Source: Thunnus maccoyii (taxonomy: Eukaryota; Chordata; Actinopteri; Scombriformes; Scombridae). From it: a DNA stretch of 64,000 nt. Every line of letters begins with the position of its first letter. Position 1 is the stretch's first letter. Location: positions 7,669,111 through 7,733,110 of the forward strand of contig NC_056552.1 in the NCBI RefSeq assembly GCF_910596095.1. Direction: 5' to 3'. The notes under the pieces are model-generated. The model made no database searches. It was not told where the DNA came from and saw only the letters and a program-made list of their open reading frames with translations. Shown here in pieces: positions 1 to 56,200 of this stretch. The translations under genes and the position numbers were made by a program.

Positions 1-251
1 CATGAAAGTTCCATCATGCATTTATACCCTTTAACATATTAAAGTTCAACTCAATATCTGTGCCACAGAATCTGACGTGTTTGTTGTTAGAAGTTCTCAC
101 CCCTCTGCAGAAATAGAGGTGTTTATAGTGTCTGTATAATGTAACCTGGGATCTACAGACAGTGTTATGAAAAGAACTTTTAAAGCAACAATAATTGAAT
201 GTGTTGTTTCTCCAAAGCTCAGCAACTAATTCTTTATCTTTCCCCTGACAG

Positions 252-14912
<14,661 letters not shown>

Positions 14913-17712: not shown

Positions 17713-20700
17713 TTACTGCTGGGCCATGATGAGGGGGATGCTGGGGCTGTTAGACCGTAGCGGCGATGCTCTCTCCCCGGTTCTGCTGTTGAACATGGGC
17801 AGTGTGGACAGAGGAAGAGGAGGAGTGCCACGGTCTCCTGCCATGTTCCTCAGCTCATCTGTGTTTCCGAGAATAGTGTGGTGGTGGTACAACTGAATCC
17901 TGCAGAAAAGTGGATGTACAGAACGTTAGTTTTGTTTAAAATATTTTGTTTAGTTTTTTGCTCTGATACCCTTTAACCATTAAGAGAAAAAGATATTTTG
18001 TCTTCAGAAATATGTTAAGAATCTAAAATATTGGCTTTTTAGACATTTTGGACATCTGGCTGTGAGTGTGTAACTATTTTGTTTTTTTTCTTTTCAATGC
18101 AAAAATGTTTTATGTATAAGTCTGGCAACAGTGAACAACATTTTGTACTTACTGGTTTGTCCTTGCATTCCTTTTGGCCCTATGAAAAAAAGAATAATGC
18201 GTCACCTTTGTGTCACAGTTTATCAGGATCAATCAAAAGCTGAAATTGGCTTTGAGTATTTGCTTCAACAGTGAGTTCACCCAGATAACAGGAATTCTTA
18301 AATTCCTACTCACACCCAGTGGAAGGGTTAACCACTAACCCTAACCCTAACCCTAACCCTAGTGGGATCCATTAGATAGCTACCCTAACCCTAACCCTAA
18401 CCCTAGTGGGATCCATTAGATAGCTACCCTAACCCTAACTCTAACCCCAGTGGGATCCATTAGATAGCTACCCTAACCCTAACCCTAACCCCAGTGGGAT
18501 CCATTAGAAAGCTACCCTAACCCTAACCCTAACCCTAGTGGGATCCATTAGATAGCTACCCTAACCCTAACCCTAACCCCAGTGGGATCCATTAGATAGC
18601 TACCCTAACCCTAACCCTAGTAGGATCCATTAGAAAGCTACCCTAACCCTAACCCTAGTAGGATCCATCAGAAAGCTACCCTAACCCTAACCCTAGTAGG
18701 ATCCATTAGAAAGCTACCCTAACCCTAACCCTAGTAGGATCCATCAGAAAGCTACCCTAACCCTAACCCTAGTAGGATCCATTAGAAAGCTACCCTAACC
18801 CTAACCTTAGTAGGATCCATTAGAAAGTTACCCTAACCCTGACCCTAACCCTAACCCTAGTAGGATCCATTAGAAAGCTACCCTAACCCTAACCCTAGTA
18901 GGATCCATTAGAAAGCTACCCTAACCCTAACCCTAGTAGGATCCATCAGAAAGCTACCCTAACCCTAACCCTTGTAGGATCCATTAGAAAGCTACCCTAA
19001 CCCTAACCTTAGTAGGATCCATTAGAAAGTTACCCTAACCCTGACCCTAACCCTAACCCTAACCCTAGTAGGATCCATTAGAAAGCTACCCTAACCCTAA
19101 CCTTAGTAGGATCCATTAGAAAGTTACCCTAACCCTGACCCTAACCCTAACCCTAGTAGGATCCATTAGAAAGCTACGCTAACCCTAACTCTAACCCTAA
19201 CCCTAGTAGGATCCATTAGAAAGCTACCCTAACCCTAACCCTAGTAGGATCCATTAGAAAGCTACCCTAACCCTAACCCTAGTAGGATCCATCAGAAAGC
19301 TACCCTAACCCTAACCCTAGTAGGATCTATTAGAAAGCTACCCTAACCCTAACCTTAGTAGGATCCATTAGAAAGTTACCCTAACCCTGACCCTAACCCT
19401 AACCCTAACCCTAGTAGGATCCATTAGAAAGCTACCCTAACCCTAACCCTAGTAGGATCCATTAGAAAGCTACCCTAACCCTAACACAAAATTTCACCAA
19501 ATAAACACAGCTATCTAAATGGCTACTCCACTAGTGGTTCAAAATAGATACATACACTCCCTCTCGTCTGCAACACATGATGTAGGCCAGCAGGGTACAC
19601 AGGATGATGGCAAGGATCAGGGGCACGATCACTGTCACAATGTAGTCTGGGAGATAGTCTCTGCTCGGTGGAGACTCGAGGGGGATGAAGTCACCTCCAG
19701 CCTCCAGAATCCCTGAGCCCACCGTGGGAGCAGGTGGAGTCGGCTCCTGCTTTGACAGATCAAACTGCAGGGAGAAAAAGGAGAGCCAGTTTTCTGTCAT
19801 ATAAACTATGAGATACAAAGGCACAGATGACAAGATTGTTAGTGTGCTTTCAATTGATTAAGCATCCTAAATAGGGCTATGGTGGTTGTCAATCTGGGGG
19901 TCAAGACACCTTCAAAGGGTCACAAGTTTAGTTGTATAGCACCTTTCAACAACAAGGCAATCCAAAGTGCTTTACATGAAACATAAAAGGCCTTAAGAAA
20001 ATTAGAGATACCGCCTTGTGGTTGTATGCCTCCGCTAACTAGTCAAGTTGCAGTTTACATCCATGACTGTCCAGACTCATAATATCTGTAGTGAAGACTT
20101 TGAAGGAATTAAATAAAAGGTATTAAGTGTCTTGAGTTATGGCCAAAAACATGTTATGTGAGGTCACAGTGACCTTGACCTTTGACCACCAAACTCTAAT
20201 CGGTTCATTCTTGAGTCCAGTGGACGTTTGTGCCAAATTTGAAGAAATTCCCTCAAGGCGTTCCTGAGATATCGCATTCAGAAGAAGGGAATGGACGGAC
20301 AACCTGAAAACATAATGCCTCCAGCCACAGCTGTCACCGGTGCAGAGGCATAAAAAAGGAATAAAAATAGGATTTAAAAGGAGTAAAGTTAAAAAGAAGA
20401 CTGGTTAAGACACATGCCACATAACCGCTCGATTCCAGCAGCGGACCCTTGTTACATGTCTTTCCTTGTCCTCCCTTCCTGTCACTGCCCTACCGTTGCT
20501 ACCTGATAAAGGCATAAAATGTCCAAAAAAACCCTACATATATAAAAAGAGGTTAAAATAAGGTAAAATAGAATAAAACAGATTAAACAGGAGGATGAAA
20601 TAACAGTGCAGTAAGATAAATACTCCCAAATATTTCAAGAAAAATCTGAAGAGCCGCAAGATTAACAGGATAAGAAAGAAAAATAATGTAAGACCATTTG

Positions 20701-23700
20701 TCTTTCTTTTCTCTAACCTTTCATTTTAGTCATTATGCATCACGGTGCTGGAACGCCCCAACCCTTGCAGCTTTTAAATCCAGATCGAAACCTTATTGTT
20801 CTCAAGAGCTTTAACTACATGTTTTTAAAACTCAAGGTCTTATTATTATTGTATTATTATTATTTTTAATCTTTTTATTTATTCATTTTTATTCTTTTAC
20901 TCTTTTATTTTATTTCTTAATTATTTTTTATTTTTGTTTCTATACAGATTTTATCTCTTTTATTCTGCTCTTTTCCGATTGTGTTGTTTTAACTTTGTTT
21001 TGTGCTGCTGTAACTTCTCTGTACAGCACCTTGAATCTACCTCTGTGTATGAAACGTGCTTTGTAATTAAAACTGCTTTGCCTTTTTCTGATGAAATAAT
21101 GTAAAGTTTAACCTCTTCCAGCCTCTTAAAAAATCTAAATATTGAAAATATTGAAAATGCAACCCCCTGAAAATGACTGTAAACTCGTTGACATGCGCAA
21201 TGTGTCATTTAAAGAGGCCATAAGATGAAAATGTTGCAAACCACTGGTCTGTGAAATATCAACAAATATTAAAAAGCCTATGTTGATATCTTCAAATTGG
21301 TTGTTTTTGTCTGATAAGCATTTTAAAAAAAGGTATTCAATTTACACTACATAAAATAGAGAAAAGCAAAAGGACTAAAATTAACAGCTTGAATCAATTA
21401 TCAAATAGAAGATGATTCATTTTCTGTTGTGGTTTCCAACATTTTTGGCTTGTTATCCTTCAAAACATCAGTGAGGACATGAAACAGGTCAGTGAGGACA
21501 TGGGCTGTGAGTGGGTCAGTTGACTGATTTTCCCTCATTTGATTGTTTTTTAGGGGTCACACAGGTGAAAGTATCTGGTCTTTCACAAGAAAAAAGCAAA
21601 AAAAAAAAAAGATAAAAGTCAGAAATATAATTATTGTTCTTCCTTATCCCTTTTAATCATTTTCTGACTCCTTAGATTTATTTTGGGACCCCTTGGTTGG
21701 GAACTACGGGACTAATCATTTCAGGACTAATCCCTAACCTCTGCCATTTAAATAGAAGGACTTATACCAGAAATATTACACTAAATTCCTTCATAAAAGT
21801 GACATTACAAACTCTGTATTGCTCATAATTCACACCACCATTCATATGTCTTTTCAGCCCTCACCAGCTCAGTCTTGCACCACGTGATACAGTTGCTGGG
21901 GATGCTGCAGAAGTTACATTCTCCAGGGATCTTGACTTTGGCCCCTGCTTTGCACTGCTTCTCATGCTCTGCTGTCAGCACCCTCAGGAGACAATCTGAG
22001 AAAAACTGCTCCGACCCCACCTTCACATACACACTGACACAAATCAGATTTTAATAATGGAACAGTCATTTTAAAGCTATAAAAGTCACAGTAAGCTGGC
22101 AGAAAACTCTCTTTTTACCCTTCAAAGTGGCCTGCAAGAGGGAGGGGAACTCTGCCGCCACGGTCGAGAGCGTTGGTGATGTTGACAATTTCCAAAGCCT
22201 CTGTGTCCCACAGCTTCTGTAAATCCTGCTTTATTTCATCCTGAACAGGAGAGGGCAGCACCTTCTCAACCTCTCTCAGTTTGATGAAGAACTCAGCTTG
22301 ATAGGGCAAGATCCCCTCTGTGAGTGAGTGCAACGGTGTACGACATGTCATTTCTACAGTCATTGTGTGAATTTTGTCCCATATACTCCTTTATTATTAC
22401 TATACCTGTGCTATGGATTTGTGATAATAATTTAAATCATACATACCTGCTGTTACTTTGATTACGAGAATTTGTCTGGCTGTTTCATAGCTCCGTTTGT
22501 TGACGGCATAAATCTGTCAGACAAAGGATGAGAGTTTATTAACCCTTACATACTGTTCCTACTCTGACCCTTCACAGTATCCTCTCATAATTAAGACTCT
22601 CTCTCTCAAGTCCAAACTTCTAAACCACAAATTTTTCATTCATAAATACCTCATCAGTCATTATCAGTCAAAATTTCTGAATAAGTACAGGTCAAATCTA
22701 ACTATTGATGTATAAAAATATGTATCAGCTGCACAAATTTTTAAAAAAAGTTGACATAAAAAGTTGGAACATTTCAATTTTTTGTATATTCTGTGTCACT
22801 TTGAGAAAGGCCATATAATTTCAGGCTAAACGAGTGGTGTTGAGGTGTTTTTACTGCTCTCAAATGTACAAATGGGTCAAATTTGACCTGAATGGGTCAA
22901 ATTTATACTGTACACAGTGTAGTTATACTGTGTAATAGAAAAGGTGCCTAATTAATAAGGCAGTTTCCAAATATTTAACAATGTCACTCTCAGATATTCT
23001 TTCACTATTTGTTTCTATTGTTTACTGCATTCTTGTTGTTGTTGTGTTTGTTTACCTCTACTTTGCATTAGTTATCTATTTCCTACATTTCCCAGACTGC
23101 CCTCTTTCTTAATAACATAATATAATATGTGTTTTGAATCAGATAGAGTACAGTAGAGCTGCAATCTTTGATTGAATCCAAAATGTGACATGTTTTCCAT
23201 AGATATTATATTCTGTTTGATTGAGACTATGGTGCCACTTCAGAGACTTGTATCTCTTCTTCTTCTTCTTCTTCTTCTCTGACAGGTTTCTTCATGAATG
23301 TTTGATGATGATGCAAAAAAAACCCCCCAAAAAAAACAGCAGCTCCAGAGTGAAGCCCGACGCTTTTGTCTCTGAGGGTCTGACAGCAAAACCTGACATT
23401 TACCAATGATGTTTCATACAGCTGAATAATTTTCAGATTTGTCTCTATTGTAGCTGCGCTGGAAAAATTTCACTATATGCATTATCCACCAGAATGAAAG
23501 TAAGAATATATACCATCAAGCATTCTCATTCAGGTTTGTGTCACTGTTAGTGTGACTGCATACCTCAATTATACTTTTTCCAGGAGATACTGGTGTCCCA
23601 TACAGGAAGCCGTTATCATAGGGGTGCCTTTGGGTGAAGCGCAGCCACTCTGGGAGGTCTGGGAAATTCTGCCTGTTGCACTTAAAAATCATGGGGTCAT

Positions 23701-28971: not shown

Positions 28972-30995
28972 ATGATGAAGACCGAATCCACATCCAAGAG
29001 CACCGGCTCTGGCTCCACGCTCAGGAGCCCATCCCCGCACAGAAACGCGTACGAGGCGGGGATGCAGGCCCTGAAACCCGTCAAAGACAATTCTGCAAAC
29101 GGGGACATGCAGGAGGGCCCCCGAGGGCGCAGGTACGGCTCCAACGTGCATCGTATTAAAAACATGTTTCAGCAGATGCAGACCACATCCCCAGCCGATG
29201 CAGAGGGAGAGGAAGGCGCCAGGAACAACGACAAAACGGTGCGCCTCTCTCTCCCCAGAGCCGGGAGCCTGAACGAGAACGTGGACCACAGCGCGCTGCT
29301 GAAGCTCGGATCCACCGTGTCCGAGCGCGTCAGCAAGTTCGACACCAAACCGGAGAACGGGCACCAGCGGGCCTCATCACCCAGCTACTCCAAGCTGCAG
29401 GAGACCCGCCGCATCTTCGAGCAGCAGCAGGAGAGACAGCAGCAGGAGAAGCTGGCCACCACCAGAGTCCTGCTGAAGACAGACAAGGCCTCAGGCTTTC
29501 AGGATGGCAGGTTGGATGTGGTGGCTCGTTTCAATGGCAGCACAGAGTCCCTTGACAGCCTGGACACCAGTGAGGCAGTGTCCCCAACAGTCAGCCAGCT
29601 CAGTGCTGTGTTTGAACGGGCAGCCGAGCTCCGGAACAACCTCCACCGCCTCTCTTCTACACCACCGCTCCCCTCCAGGGGGGGTCAGCACCAAGGTGGG
29701 TGTGTTGAACTCAAAAATAATCACAAAGAGGGTCAGTGCCTTTGCAGCAGGCAACCAGGAGGAAGAACTAGGCAATCTGAAGGACCAAGAGGGGCCTCCA
29801 AGGGGCCCCAGGGGGAGGGTGTCTCCCCCTTCTGAAAGCGTTAATGGGGGCCAAAGTGCTTCATATAGTGAATTTTCCAGTACTGTAGGGGAGCCAAACG
29901 AGCAGAGAGAAAAGACTGTTTCAGATGCAGGTGTTGAGGCCAAAGCTGAGGTCACATTTGAGGAACACTCTGGCGCCAAGCAGCCCAGCAGCAAAACACT
30001 GCAAGGTGATATCCACATCTCTGCGGAGAATGGACAAACTGCTGCTGAGAAGCAAAGCTCAAAGGGCGGCGAGATGAGGGACGGGGAGAGGGATGCAGAA
30101 GAAGAGGACGACAGGACGCTCAGAGACGACCAGTCGGGCCGCGACTCTGTGGATATCAGTACCTACAGCGCGGTCGGGGAGGACTTTGGAGGAAGCCAGG
30201 TGGATGAAGAGGAAGATGAGGGCGATGACCGCTACGAGCCCGAGTCCAGCTGTGTGGAGATTTCTGGGCTGCCTGCTGAAGAGGACCCGCCCCCTTCGAG
30301 GAAGATCCGCTTCAGCATGGAGCCCATCAAGGTGAGGAAATATGCACTGGAAAAAAAAAAACCCACATAGAATTAATATAAACAAGATATGCAAACATGA
30401 AGATGTTATCATTCAGACAAGACCCACAGTCTAATTAGGCGGTGCAGATTTGTGAATTGTAATTTTGCCCCTATTGTGGTGTGTGTTTTGAATTTTCTTC
30501 CATTCTGTGTGTCGAGAGGATGGTTGAACTTGACCTTAAAGCTTATCTGCTGCGGTACAGTGATAGCCAGCACCACTGTCAGCTGTTTTAATGAACTCAC
30601 TCAGCTTTTACCGGTGTCAGAATGATGCTGACATTTTGATTTTACCCTGTTTCAACATGGGGCTTTGCACATTACTAACACCCTCCCTCCACAGTAGCCA
30701 GTTGCTAACGGATGGCCCTGCATTCCAACTGTGCAGCTGACATGGGCCCCAAAAGAGCCACTATGTAGATACTTATCTGAAATGCAGTGGAAGCTGCCTC
30801 TGTAAATAATTGCTGGTGGAAGAGGAACAGAAAGGGCCAGGATAATTAGACCTGTTTTTTTTTTTAGAGATGTGGATACTCTGCTGTGACCAATGAAAGG
30901 TCAGCGTACAGTGTAGGGGGAGCTGAGTGTTTTTGTGTGTTTGAGTATAGAGGAAGTGAGTAAAAAGACTGTGATCTCCTCTTGGGCCAGTCCGA

Positions 30996-31037
<42 letters not shown>

Positions 31038-34000
31038 TATGAGGAGGAGGAGGTAGTGTTGATTCTTAGTGTCTGGGGGTGGTGTAATGATCCGAAGAAG
31101 AGCATCAGATCCTCTCCAGCTCAGTCTCGCTGCTCTGCTCTGCCTTTAGGTCTGTCTCCGCCAGCTGAAGTGGGCCCTGACATTGTGCATCACACACATT
31201 CCCTCACGCAGAAAGCCATTTCAGTGACTAAGGGCTCCTGTCCTGTATTGTGACCAGTCAAGTCGAAAGTTGCTTGTGCTCTCTCCCCATCATTGCACAT
31301 TGTCCAGTTGTGCATATTCAATAGAGCCTGAGCCTGAGAGTTTTTTAAAAAAAACCAAACAGATAATGACAAATAGGCTGATTTCTCCTTTTTTCAACAA
31401 CATAAAGAAAATACTCAAATTTGGCTATAAAAGAGTATCAACTGACGCAAAATGATTTAGAGCTGAACAGGGAATTTCAAAGGAATAGTTTGATGCTTTG
31501 AGAAAATACACATATTTGCTTTCTTGCTGAAAGTTAGACGAGATTGATGCCACTCTCATGTCTTTATGGTAAATAGGAAGCTACAGCCAGAAGTTGGTTA
31601 GCTTAGCTTAGCACAAAGACTGGAAACAGGAGGAAACAGCTAGCCTGGCTCCATCTAAAGGAAAACTAAATCAGAAAACCAGCTCCTCTAAAGCTATTTC
31701 AAAAGATGTCAAACTATTCCTTTAATATCTAACTAGCCTATCTAAGATGATGGTATGTATGTGTGTTTAAATGTGGATCCTGAAAACATATTTTATCAGC
31801 TCTCTTAGTGAGAGTGACGTCCTACATTTAAACATTATTTTCTGCCAGTGTTCGAACTGTTTCGGTCATTTCACATCAGAGGTTTCTGCGTTTCTCTCTG
31901 CTCGTATGGTTTGAAGAGACTGAGGCTCACTTGTTAAAAATGTGATGTCACGTAATTCTTTGCACAAATCGGGATTAAGCAACATTCAAATCAGAATCTG
32001 ATGACAGCTGATGGGTTGTCAGTCTGGGTCGTCACTGTCAGTCAAATCCGATCAGTCCACATCTATAGTCTCCTGATGAAGCAGCTTACCAGAGTTTGAG
32101 TGTGAAATTCTTAATAATCTTTAAACTTTGATTACTGTTTATTTATGTTGCTCTGCGTCATAGAGAAGCAAAAAAATCTACAATCTAACATTTGTGACTA
32201 AACAACCAAACTGAATTTTATTATTTATCATTAAGTTACAATTTAATCACATTTTTGATACTTTAACAGCTGATTGTAATTGAAGTGGTTTAATTCTGAT
32301 GGCTGCACTGAAATATGTGGTGTCACATTTTTGCAGCAGAGCCCCATCCACCTCAAACTAGAGAGAAACCCACAGGCAAAATAAATACAGTATAGCTAAG
32401 GTGAAACCAACTGTGTTCTAACTTCGGCATATGATAGTGTGTTTATGAGGGTCCCCGTCGCTCATATGCACTATTTTTGTGATTGGCAGTTGATGGTGGA
32501 AAAAGACGCAAACAGTGAGGGTTACGAAATATTCATAGCTTTGCAAATGTTTCTATGAGGAAGGAAGTGCATTCAACACGCGCCAAGGATGGACACCATG
32601 AGTTTTGTTGAGAAACGATGAAAGTACATGAAAACTCCTCAGGGTACCGTTAAATCTTAAATAATATCTGTAAATAAAAACAAATAAATGTTTTCAAGCT
32701 TGAATGAAGAAACATAAGAGTGAGAAATGCAGCCTTTAAAGCGTTTATGTACAGTAATTTCTATGAGCGTGTGTGCCAATTATATGCAAATACTCTTATA
32801 TCTGTGATAAGCCAATACTAGGCTTTAATATCCACCCAATGTTTGGATCATACAGACTGTGTCCGCCATGCTGAAAATCCCATCAATCCCATATAAATCA
32901 TGTCTGAGCTCAGTATGCCATTGTAATGCAGGAAGAAAAAGGAAGAAAAAAAAAAAACAAAACAGACTTCTATCACATTATTTTATCCTCAGGAGATCAA
33001 AGATGGCTACCCGGAGGAAGCATTATGTATGGTGTGATAAAGAAGTCGTAACTCATAGGCTTTGATGAAAAGCAAAATTTGGTTGTGACCCTGCAGCCAT
33101 CATCGGAGAATAACCTCCTACTGAGTCCTTTCACACTGTATCAGTGTGGCCTTTGTTATGGAGATTGATGCAGGGGTGGATGAGAGTAAAGAGGAGGGGG
33201 GGGGGGGTAGTGAGGTCAAATGGGAGGGGCATTATTATGCAGCTCAAATGTCATGCGACTGTATAACTGCCAGCTCTTAAGTCACAGTGTCAGTTGGTTT
33301 CTCTCCCAAACAGGAAGTGCCCATTTTTAGTGCATATTTCCCCTCTGTGCAACAATTCAGCTTTTGGCCACAATTAAGTCTTGTTGTGGTGATGGCGGTT
33401 GGACGTCTGGGCGCATGTCTTTCTTTGTCCCCCGATTTTACACCGAACACTTCTCACTGTCTGTCTGTCTAGCTGTCTCCGTCCTCCTCGAACTGGCAAA
33501 AATAGCATTTCTGCTTCGGGTAGAGTTCACACTAGACCCTTTGTTTGCTCCTCCTGACACTTTTTCTCTCGCTCCTTCTTTTTTTCCCTTTCGCTCTTTG
33601 TCACCAGTCTCCTACTGTTAGTAAAAATAGCAGCATTGTTATCGTCACAGACTTGCCTTGCTTTTCAGGGCCACCTCCTCGCCGAACACAGGAAGCGGCC
33701 TCTCATGTCTTAATTATTCGTTGAGCTTGTTTGTTTTGGCTTCACGTTATATCAGTTCAGTATCAGTATACTACTGTGTTTCATGATGTAGTCATGCCAT
33801 GATTTTTAATTATTTATCCTTTTGTTAGAGGAGAGCTTTTTTTTTAAAAAAAGCGTAAGATAATCTCCATTTGATTTGTGCTGTGTTCCCCCCAAACTAG
33901 AAATAATCAGATTTATTTTTCATGCACCAGAATCACCTTGCTCACTCATCACCTTGCCTACTCTAATACTTTTTACCCCCCCCCATCACCACCGTCACAC

Positions 34001-40460: not shown

Positions 40461-43400
40461 CTTGTGAGCAGCAGCTGCAGAAGGCCTCCATTAGCATGCT
40501 GGAGGTGGTTATGTAAACTGTCATGCTGTTAGACCAGAGTGAATGTGGGAAGTCGGGCCCTGAAACAGAGGCCTCTGTCTTCATGAGAGCAACTTTAGTG
40601 GTTCTGATTAATTCTCCCCAGTGTGTTTGATACAAATTACCGCTGTGAAACGATACAGATCGAGGAAATGCTGCGGCTGTCTCATTTGAAACGGTCAATA
40701 AATTTGAATTGCATTATGTCTGCATTACAGTGCTGGTCAGTAATGATCAAACCATGTATCCGGCTTGTCTGTCTCAGCTGTTTACATCGCCAACGCTCTG
40801 AGAGTTTGCAAACATATTTGATAGAAATTTGAAGTCAGTTCAGAAACTTCTTCACTGAATACATCATATTCATTTTCCATTTGTTTTAGCAAAAGCAGAG
40901 GGCTATTTCAGGTTTCAAAAAAACACTTCGTACTGGATTTAAAATATGTAACAATTCATGCACATGATCTAAAAAAACACTGCAGTGTAGTTTGCTGTGG
41001 ATATGCATTTATTCACTTGTTGTTAAGTCACAATCCACAACCTTTCCTTGAAAACAAATCTGCATTTTTGCAGCGATGTGATTCAACATTTACTATGTGT
41101 CCCCCAGTGTGCAGAGGAAGTGATATGTTTTCTGTTTTCAGTTGCAGTTACTATATTTGGACTAAATGCGGGAAGAACTGGGTTGTAGGAAGGAGCGCTG
41201 ATAGCCTCTGTGACTGCAGAGACAAGAGAGGGTCACCCGAGAAACTGAAACCTCACTAGAGGAAAATCCAAGGAGAGACATGTTACTGCTTGGAAAGAGC
41301 AGTGCAAAAACACAACAGACAGGACCAGTTATCCCTGAAGATAGTACTTATTTCAAGAAGTAGTTTGCTTTCTTGCAGAGAGTTTGAGAAAACTGGTAGC
41401 ACTCTCATTTCTTTCAGTTAAATATGAAGCTACAGCAAGGATACGGTTAGCTTAGCTTATCATAAGGATCGGAGGCAGGGGGAAACAGCTATCCTCGCTC
41501 TTTAAACATGTAAAACCACAAATTATCATAGGTTTTTGATGTGAATAACCAAACATGATGTAACATGTTAATAATTGAGATTTAGAGGTGCTGGTAGGTG
41601 GATTTTTTAACTTTTGGACAGAGCCAGGCTAGCTGTTTCCCTCTGTTTGCAGTCGCTAAGCTAAGCTAAGCTCAGCTAAGCTAACTGTCTACTGACTGTA
41701 GCTTCATATATACTGTAACTGAACAAATATGAGAGTATTATCAATCCTCTCATCTAACTTCTAGCAAGAGAGCAAATGAGCTTATTTCCTCAGAATGTGC
41801 CTTTCTTAGGGAAATTCCTGAAACTATGCACCATTACAAATATTGTGAAAAGAAAATTCCCATCACCTCCCACGGTCTTGAACACAGAGGTTTAAGTAAT
41901 TGTGATACTCAGCCTAATGTAGCGTGTCTATTTCCTCCTGCAGGTGTTTGCCACCTATCCCAACGAGGACTATGACAGGCGTAATGAAGACGTGGATCCC
42001 ATGGCAGCATCTGCTGAGTACGAGCTGGAGAAGAGGGTGGAGAGGCTGGACCTGTTCCCCGTGGAGCTGGAGAAAGGTCCTGAACATTATAAAATTACCT
42101 AAAAAGCCCGCTTTCTATTCCCAGTGCTCATCTGTATTCAGTCAAATCCTATGTGTACAAAGCTACTTACAAAAAGACTTGGGTCTGCTCATACAGTACA
42201 AATATTTCTAAGCATCTGGGTTGTTTGCACAATATTGGGAATCTGAATATAAGAAATTTGACAGGCTGTCGCTGTATTTGAAAATGAATTTTTGTATATG
42301 TGATTAACCTCCCACAGGACAGTTTGATTCTTCCTTTCGGTCTCTATTTGAAGCCAAATGAAACAACTTTTTGTTATTACTTATGTAAAAAGGCCCACAA
42401 TGTTCACCAGCTGCCTTCTGTCAACCCTCCTGTCTCCCACAAGGCACACAAGTGCGATGGTGCAAGTTTTACCTTCCATCTCTCCTCAGTGAGCCATACT
42501 TCCAACATCTCTTCAACATTATGGTGCATTAATATATTTATAGAAGACTATATTTAGACTTGTGTACGTGGCAGGTTACACAGGATGCCATATGTGACCA
42601 TGTTGTGTATAAATGATGTGCAGCTGTGTATTCTGTCCACATTCATCACATCTGGACAAAACAGAAATTCCAGTTATTGGTGAAAAAGAGAAATGGTGTG
42701 CACAAATTATCAGAGCATTACACCTCAGGCAGGAAATCAGGGTGTTATCATTGACTCTGATCTAACTGTCAAGCCACGTACAAAGAATTTAATTAGAACA
42801 GTGTTCTGTTCTTTCAATAATGTGCAATGATCAGACCTTTTCTTTTTCCTCAAGATACAAAGAAGCTTGTTCATCCTTTTTTTTTTTTTATTTTTTTTTT
42901 TTACAAGCACGCTCAACTATTATAATACGTTGCTCTCAGGGATCCCCAATAGTTCCATAAATCAGTTACAGCTCATACATAATGCTGCTGTCGGTGTTAA
43001 AAGATACAAAGAAAAGAATTCACATCACTCCTGATCCTTGCATAGCCCCCAGTTAGGATTGATTTATGATCCTACTACTTATTTATAAATCTTTTCATGG
43101 CTGCTGTGGTTGTTGTGCTGCGATAATATGCTGCATGTCCCTGGTAGACCTCTCGGATCCACAGACTCGCTGCTGCTCACCGTACCAAAAGAAATCAGAC
43201 AAAGCTTGAAGCTGCCCTCTGCAGCTTTGGACCCAAACTCTGGAACAGATTCTCCCGCTGGATCTGAGGACAGCAATGTCAAACTAAAAAACTCACCTCA
43301 ACTCGTATTATTAATTTTTGATTATTCTCTTTTTCTTTTTGAACTGTATGGATGTATGCAAGCAGGTTTAACTGTTTAAATTAACTGCTCTTTCTACTTG

Positions 43401-53288: not shown

Positions 53289-56200
53289 CTACAAGTGCAT
53301 CTTCTGATGGTGTCTCCTGAGGTGATAGTTTCGGGAAAAGCTCTTCCCGCACTGGGTGCATTTGAACATTCTCTGTCCCTGGTGGAGCATTTGGTGAGCT
53401 TTGAGACTCTGCGGGCGACTGAAGCTTTTACAGCACTCGGGGCAGCTGTACGGCCTCACTCCCGTGTGCTTCCTCTCGTGTCGCTTCAGGTCTCCCGACT
53501 GCCGGAAGCTCTCCCCGCAGTGGGTGCACAGGTACGGCTTCTCCCCCGTGTGAGTTCTGAGATGCACGTTGAGCTGGCCGGTGTAGGAGAAGCTTTTGCT
53601 GCAGTGAGGGCAGTTGTACGGCTTCTCGCCTGTGTGAATGCGCTGATGTTGCTTGAGGCTGTAGTGGTTTGCGAAGCCCTTACCACAGTCAGTGCACAAG
53701 TAGAGCACCTTTACTTGCTGGAAGCATATGTGAGTTTTGAAAGCTTTGGCATTCGCGCAGCTCTTCCCACAATGAGGGCATATATATTCCTTTTCACCCT
53801 CCTCCTCCTCCTCCTCTTCCTCCTCCTCCATCTTATCCATTAGGCTGTCTGAATCGCAGTGTGACAGATACTCAACCGGGTGGTGTCTCCTGATGTGTTT
53901 AACAAGGTAGCTCTTCATAGTGAAGGAGAACTGACAGAACGAGCATGGGAAAAGCTCAGACGTGCAGTGATACTTCATACAAGTGTTGCTCTTCTGATGC
54001 TGTTTAAGGTTCCCGCCTGTAGAGAAGACCTTACCACAGCGGTCACAGGTGTAAGATTTTCCATTTACATGTACCGTCTGCTCGTGTCTCTTCAGGAAGC
54101 CAGACTTATGAAAGGTTGCCCCGCACTGACCACACTTGTGCTGTCTCAGAGCACACTTATGTGCTTTGAGATCGTCTGGGTTTCCGTACGTTCGTTTACA
54201 ATGATTACAACTGAACCATTTGTATTTTTTTAACTTTCCGTTTCTGACACCGGCTGTTTCCGTTTCACTGCACTTCTCCTCAGTCTGAGCCGTGCCGGTT
54301 AACGGCTTCTTGCAGATGGTTGACCTTCGTTTTGGAGCTATGAGCTTTGTTATGGCGGATATTTTAGATCTAGCTCCGAGTCGCTGAGGCCTCTGAGAGG
54401 GAAGTTTTTGGATAGACTCAACTGTTTCAGCCACTGAGGGTTGTGGACTGAAGTCAGGGTCATGGCTCTGATCATCACCTGTAGGCACTGGATCGTCCTC
54501 TTGAGTCTCCTCTGAGTGAGTCTCGCTTATGTGTTCCTGAAGCGTGTCCACTGAAGAAAAAGTCAGTGAGCACTCCGCACAGCTAAACGGCATAGTGTGA
54601 GATTCCTCCTCGGCCTGGTTTACTTCTTCTCTCCCTTTGCTTTGTTTCTGGTGACGCCGCAGGTGCCTGGTCAGGTCGTTGTACTGGCCAAAGCACTTCT
54701 GACACACAGTGCAGACGTACGGGCGAAACTTGTCATGGACCATCGCTTTGTGCTTTTTGAGGGACGCTTCATATATGAAGCTCTTTCCGCAGTCTGAACA
54801 ATTGTTGGACTGTTCATCCAACTCCTGGGATGTTTCTGCCTCTCCTGCAGAAGTATTCTCCGTTTCAGTTGCATCCTTGGCTTCTTCTATGTTCTCGCTT
54901 GCATTCATTCCCTTTGTTTGAATCACTTCCTCAGCTGCTGTATTAGAAAGCTCCGACTCTGATGTCAAGCTCTCTTTCCCTTCATTGAGGATTTCGCTCT
55001 GTTTAGGCACCTCTTTTATCACAACCTGCTTTCTGTGGATTAGCTGGTGTCTGATTAAGCCGGACGCCTGGCTAAAACTTCGCCTGCACTGCGGGCAGCA
55101 GTAGGGGCGCTTGTTTGAGTGGACACAAAGCTTGTGCCTCTTGAGGTGAGGTAATTGCTTGAAAGTCTTCCCACAATCAGAACACGTTTTGGACTCCACG
55201 GGATCCACAGATAACACCACTGGGGAATCTGCAGAGTCAGCATTTGAAGCAGGATTTTCAGGTTCAACTGCTTCAACGACTGGTGCTGTACAGTCCGCTT
55301 TTGGTTGTGTGTGGAAGTTTTCTGTATGTCGCTGGAGGAAGGCTTCTGTAGTGAAGGACAGCTGACAGTGGGAGCACGGGAAGATCTGAGATGTCGCAGT
55401 TGAATTACTCTCTACAATTTAGAAGAGAGGAGAAAAATTTACGTTACACTTCATGGTGAATTGCAAGAATCATCCTGTCAACTGGAAAATAAATCAATAA
55501 AAAAAAAAAGACTTCATGACTTGTTGAACTACCAGTACATAAAATGGCCTTCCATATCATGTTCTCAGTCATAGGGTAGTAAAGGTACCTGCTGCATTCA
55601 ACTTCATAACCCACATCTGGTTCCAAGCTTCACTAAAACGGGCGAGAAGTTTGCTGCTGGGCCCCACCAGTAACTCATCTCCGGGGTGTATGGTGCGACA
55701 GCAGTGAAAAAGGATGCTACCTTTGTACTGGACCGCTAGCAAGTTCATCTCGTCTTTATTACGAGCACAGTTGACGTACCTGTGTAAGAAAGAAGAAGGT
55801 AAGAAAAATATCAGGTGGTCCAACTCAGCTTGAATATAAACATGGAAAAAGCAGCGGCAGAGGGTCCCTCTCAGTTTTTTTGGATGCACCATCCTCCGCA
55901 ATATGAAGTGAGATATAATGAGGTTAAATAAGAAAATCATTTCTTGTATGGACTATAGAGGCTAGGCACAAAACTGGGTCTTGGTTGGGGTTGATTGTGC
56001 GACCTGGATGTGCCTTCATATCAGGCATTCAAGCATCACATTAAAAAATGTTTCACGAGGAATGTAACTGTTTTAAACAGTCAAGTTTTATCTAGTTTAT
56101 ATCTCAGATCCTGTTTTGTTGGGTTGGATCTAATTGCTGTAAATTAATGTGTTTTAATGTAACTTTATGACACTTATTTATGCTGCCATTTTGGCCAGGT

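Follow-up and report, generated by a model that had tools for sequence, protein, structure and literature searches.

A stretch of 64,000 nucleotides from Thunnus maccoyii (contig NC_056552.1, positions 7,669,111 to 7,733,110, forward strand; hereafter the window) contains, in an intron of the alpha-sarcoglycan gene sgca, a minisatellite in which telomere hexamers alternate with a recurrent spacer. Comparison of the two edges of this array suggests that telomere repeats interrupt one arm of an inverted repeat that encloses it, and that they do so at a TAG that is in register with the hexamer. We assign a probability of about 0.53 to the interpretation that a break in the arm of a transposon was repaired with telomere hexamers, that these were then copied in tandem together with a piece of the arm, and that the resulting array is most likely neutral. 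Positions given below are those of the window.

Telomere repeats seem to interrupt an inverted-repeat arm

The elements of the array and of its edges are as follows.

18330..18337, plus strand: outer portion of the left inverted-repeat arm, AACCACTA, immediately before the first hexamers
18338..18361, minus strand: first telomere block, 24 nt, made up of four GGTTAG flanked by CCCACTAG and TGGTTAACC; within TAG the position of the cut is ambiguous
18339..18602, plus strand: six 44-bp units of kinds A, A, B, C, A and D, with spacer GTGGGATCCATTAGATAGCTA; GAAAG in one of the six
18603..19472, plus strand: 21 probably derived units (16 of 38 bp, three of 50 bp, two of 56 bp), whose spacer is GTAGGATCCATTAGAAAGCTA or a variant of it
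19473..19485, plus strand: terminal hexamers CCCTAACCCTAAC past the last spacer
19509..19539, minus strand: right inverted-repeat arm, uninterrupted, taken as the yardstick of the empty site

The array lies entirely between the two arms. The right arm is 31 nt long, starts 23 nt past the right end of the array and, when reverse-complemented, reads AACCACTA-GTGGAGTAGCCATTTAGATAGCT (in full, AACCACTAGTGGAGTAGCCATTTAGATAGCT). On the plus strand, the left edge and first spacer read AACCACTA, 24 nt of telomere repeat, and then GTGGGATCCATTAGATAGCT, which belongs to the 44-bp type of spacer. With the 24 nt removed, alignment of the left side with the reverse-complemented right arm gives a score of 40: all 12 positions agree in AACCACTAGTGG, and three single-base gaps and one mismatch follow. 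Four join points were allowed in this test, for the data and the controls alike. The highest score among 3000 dinucleotide shuffles of the right flank was 29, as it was among 2500 100-mers drawn from 1250 places in the window on both strands, and none reached 40. For comparison, a direct reading of the right flank gave 24, and the left flank gave 22. Terminal inverted repeats (40 against at most 29) are found solely with the hexamers omitted from the left arm. When the spacer alone was compared with the right flank the score was 24, and the control maxima were 23 (5000 shuffles and 5006 window segments), which indicates that most of the strength of the score comes from the join. Since the match is restored without the 24 nt, the telomere repeats seem to interrupt one of the arms.

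The first block supplies the details of this interruption. On the G strand it reads CCCACTAG, exactly four GGTTAG, and TGGTTAACC; the matched site keeps all of its bases, and the insertion begins after TAG, three nucleotides that are in telomere register. These four exact repeats, lying inside a gene, constitute near-exact TTAGGG repeats at a non-terminal site. In a survey of four mammals, 67-80% of informative loci had at least one in-register nucleotide at the break (PMC2246262). The same study reports an unmodified site in 31 of 130 rodent insertions, deletions being commoner (65 of 130), and takes the repeat consensus as the empty site for insertions within repeats.

Several observations weigh against this interpretation. 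The empty site used here is the paralogous arm and not an orthologous locus, and the join was noticed before it was tested. The spacer alone exceeds its controls by just one point. An inverted-repeat finder applied to 18180-19700 returned seven pairs, of which five matched the 10-nt core of the spacer to the right arm and two were other, weaker pairs; the full arms were not among them. With up to two mismatches, AACCACTAGTGG occurs in the window at chance level (6 found, 6.2 expected); the exact string occurs once, within the right arm. A target duplication is doubtful, with TTAA on the left and TTCA on the right at best. Hexamers are also present past the last spacer, and a single insertion leaves these unexplained. 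Finally, a second copy of the element was not recognized within the 64-kb window, so that the word transposon rests on one inverted repeat. The best scores for such a copy, obtained with the right half, were 34 (at about 31621-31651 and at 18211-18241) and 33 (at 22651); these are uncalibrated and were taken as background.

The array is a compound minisatellite with an apparent polarity

The original prediction described an array at 18335-19485 in which hexamers alternate with a spacer 27 times, and the sequence bears this out. Cutting at the spacer GGATCYATYAGAWAGYTA yields 27 units of 12 kinds. Their sizes are 38 bp (16 units), 44 bp (six), 50 bp (three) and 56 bp (two), so that the array falls among the minisatellites (tandem units of roughly 10-100 bp), and the steps between sizes are whole hexamers. 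In order along the array the kinds are AABCAD EFEFEGH EFIGJ GHK EFLGJ E. Exact CCCTAA occurs 67 times in the array. The double hexamer CCCTAACCCTAA occurs 34 times in the window, always inside the array and always on the plus strand, compared with a mean of 0.02 in 100 shuffles. In the window outside 18300-19500 there are 23 single hexamers (nine CCCTAA and 14 TTAGGG) and no tandem ones. A fusion-type interstitial telomere, in which hexamers would meet head to head, does not fit the common orientation of all 34 double hexamers.

One pattern fits all 27 spacers. The predicted BamHI site, GGATCC, is present in 26 of them and is replaced by GGATCT in one. Two spacer subtypes, also anticipated, are distinguished by GTG (six of 27; five with GATAG and one, mixed, with GAAAG) and GTA (21 of 27, all with GAAAG). 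A variant block said to recur four times corresponds to kind G followed by H or J, which occurs four times and forms part of a larger block of five units, E-F-(E/I/L)-G-(H/J). This larger block was seen three times, with lengths of 202, 208 and 208 bp, and its copies differ by one or two mismatches and one 6-bp difference. The description of a compound unit that has been re-amplified is apt.

The uninterrupted right arm carries GTG and GATAG and so matches the 44-bp kind at each of the two sites that separate the subtypes. This comparison suggests that the 44-bp units beside the left arm probably keep the ancestral spacer and that the remaining units are derived, which would give the array a polarity. 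The hexamers on either side of each spacer would offer ready homology for unequal exchange or slippage, both of which are presented in a review as general minisatellite mechanisms (PMC6947457).

The history that we infer, in each of its parts, would run as follows. The sgca intron would once have contained a short element with inverted repeats, probably a small non-autonomous DNA transposon. A double-strand break may then have occurred in the left arm, between CCCACTAG and TGGTTAACC, and about four telomere hexamers would have been added there in phase with TAG, telomerase being the simplest agent. Once hexamers flanked the adjoining arm piece of about 20 bp, unequal exchange or slippage could have copied hexamers and arm piece in tandem, producing 44-bp units first and the 38-bp units and the five-unit block later. 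In transcripts, the array would leave with the removal of the intron.

The host gene and its intron

The minus strand carries the 3' part of sgca, with the following features.

19556..19764, minus strand: 209-nt sgca exon that encodes the transmembrane segment and ends in phase 2
18180..19555, minus strand: array-bearing intron, 1376 nt, opening with GTATGT and closing with CATAG
18153..18179, minus strand: micro-exon, 27 nt, the frame being kept if it is skipped
17713..17899, minus strand: last sgca exon, coding part to the stop codon

The 209-nt exon, the 27-nt micro-exon and the last exon join into one open frame of 140 amino acids that is homologous to alpha-sarcoglycan, and this bears out both the assignment of the array to an sgca intron and the predicted micro-exon. 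The joined tail matches two solved alpha-sarcoglycan chains. The better of these, 9c3c, aligns without gaps over 99 residues, across the 27-nt exon, with an expectation value (E) of 2.9e-26; Pfam returned no family for the 140 residues at E up to 0.001. The human gene, we presume, has an exon of the same size as the micro-exon. By title and abstract start, none of the papers found in a search on SGCA exon 8 deals with a 27-nt exon. The array makes up 84% of its intron, from which it leaves 155 nt before the micro-exon and 70 nt after the 5' splice site, and both splice sites, judged by eye, seem intact.

In positions 1-14000, the plus strand has Gly-X-Y runs of 6-18 triplets in 12 of 14 kilobase pieces, the other strand having at most five triplets. 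This region is probably a fibrillar collagen gene lying tail to tail with sgca, and probably col1a1, as a COL1A1-SGCA gene order would predict. A stretch at 20090-20350, located upstream of the transmembrane exon and presumably within the intron before it, contains GTCACAGTGACCTTGACCTTTGACC; we take it to resemble a dispersed fish repeat. Further along the window are an open frame of 709 amino acids (53289-55418, minus strand) that encodes arrayed C2H2 zinc fingers (Pfam zf-C2H2, 4.3e-68; top match among solved structures, Zinc finger protein 568), an open frame of 297 amino acids (29477-30370, plus strand) that at its end matches the beginning of a PDZ domain (PDZ_5, E 8.1e-06), and a pentamer array of six GCTAA copies with 92% matches (41655-41684). 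The 297-residue frame is perhaps, judging by gene order, a neurabin-type exon.

Alternative explanations

The alternative that survives best, although we regard it as rather unlikely, is that a dispersed transposon family carries the hexamer-and-spacer minisatellite as an ordinary part of its interior, and that this copy reached the intron with the array or with a short one that subsequently grew. Tandem repeats derived from transposons, miniature inverted-repeat transposable elements included, are tabulated in PMC6947457; this explanation fits the placement of the array wholly between the two arms, and it would account for the hexamers past the last spacer. However, the telomere block breaks the arm itself and not the interior, the match returns once the block is omitted, and no other copy was recognized in 64 kb.

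It is also conceivable, and in our estimation improbable, that the inverted arms are not those of a transposon and that they arose as a short inverted duplication in the very repair event by which the telomere repeats were added. Against this, the right arm has no interruption and is separated from the left arm by about 1.2 kb, on the far side of the array. Further, the arms differ from one another by three gaps and one mismatch, whereas the blocks of the array differ by one or two mismatches, and this suggests that the arms are older than the array.

There is a still smaller chance that the array represents a single locus of a satellite spread over the genome or that its length is a product of assembly. 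Blocks that differ by only one or two mismatches are easily collapsed or expanded by an assembler, but the inverted flanks suggest a local history, and the unit kinds follow an ordered change along the array. Exact-pattern scans of viral and bacterial/archaeal collections gave no match for the unit, and a scan of viral contigs gave none for the right arm, results of little weight in viral, bacterial and archaeal sequence. A text search of papers for the unit and arm strings gave no match, and literature searches covering telomere-type minisatellites, breaks, inverted repeats and fish brought up no such locus in titles or abstract starts.

We consider it very unlikely that the array is a functional splicing element, in which binding of hnRNP A1-type proteins or the formation of G-quadruplexes sets the inclusion of the 27-nt exon. 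Its attraction lies in the transcript strand, on which the array has 67 TTAGGG and 86 TAGGGT, so that the RNA reads UUAGGG; the expectation of more than 50 UUAGGG-like motifs in the pre-mRNA is thereby upheld. Quadruplex potential was likewise confirmed: non-overlapping G3+N1-7 motifs number nine on the sense strand of the array and none on the other, with two and three elsewhere in the window. When quadruplexes were permitted, the fold energy decreased from -82.2 to -110.1 kcal/mol for the 264-nt domain of 44-bp units and from -97.6 to -105.9 kcal/mol for a 300-nt stretch of the derived domain, both without a shuffle control; the larger drop makes the 44-bp domain the likelier quadruplex former. 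The micro-exon can be skipped in frame, RNA of UUAGGG repeats is reported to be recognized by hnRNPA1 (PMC7192615), and a study that found 31% of human interstitial telomeres to be intronic, a proportion compatible with random insertion, calls their effect on splicing interesting to test (PMC7215372).

Yet the ordinary RNA fold of a 266-nt sense piece has a z-score of only -1.25, with 25 of 200 shuffles equal or better (quadruplexes being outside the model). The splice sites look intact, and the motifs end 155 nt short of the exon. Neither the two non-array parts of the intron nor the next intron contains TAGGG. The DNA fold of the 266-nt piece was also ordinary (z-score of +0.80). An elaborated version, in which a telomerase-repaired break founded a variable array of more than 60 UUAGGG that acts as a platform for telomere proteins or hnRNPs and makes inclusion of the 27-nt cytoplasmic exon dependent on allele length, is the least credible of all. 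As a whole, the original prediction was correct in the structure, the intron and the orientation of the array; it missed the inverted flanks and the polarity, and nothing in our analysis supports the effects on splicing, replication or fragility that it raised.

Relation to known systems and significance

On the interpretation that we favor, namely repair of a broken transposon arm with telomere hexamers followed by tandem copying, the locus resembles the short interstitial telomeric sequences described at breaks (PMC2246262, PMC7215372). As in these, exact hexamers in one orientation interrupt recognizable sequence, with in-register microhomology at TAG and no loss of target bases. In contrast to them, the insert and the neighboring arm have here been re-amplified into a compound minisatellite of 27 units, and the empty site is supplied by a paralogous arm. 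Vertebrate TERC-ITS loci (interstitial telomeric sequences that carry a piece of telomerase RNA) are also telomere repeats at break sites, and six of 27 in primates and rodents interrupt repetitive elements (PMC8537989). Here, Rfam gave no match between 17400 and 20600 at E up to 1, telomerase RNA included, a search with little power for a 20-nt piece. Transposon-derived minisatellites and satellites (PMC6947457) are comparable in that a piece of an inverted-repeat element has been multiplied in tandem, and different in that about half of the unit consists here of telomere hexamers. The array is most likely a neutral compound minisatellite, a variant of an already known type.

The locus would join two documented processes, the insertion of telomere repeats at breaks and the birth of a minisatellite from a piece of a transposon, and at this one place the site of insertion, the direction in which the array grew and the duplication of blocks can all be read. 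For now, a neutral curiosity is its most likely description, and it offers a natural test of the question posed in PMC7215372, whether intronic telomere repeats influence splicing.
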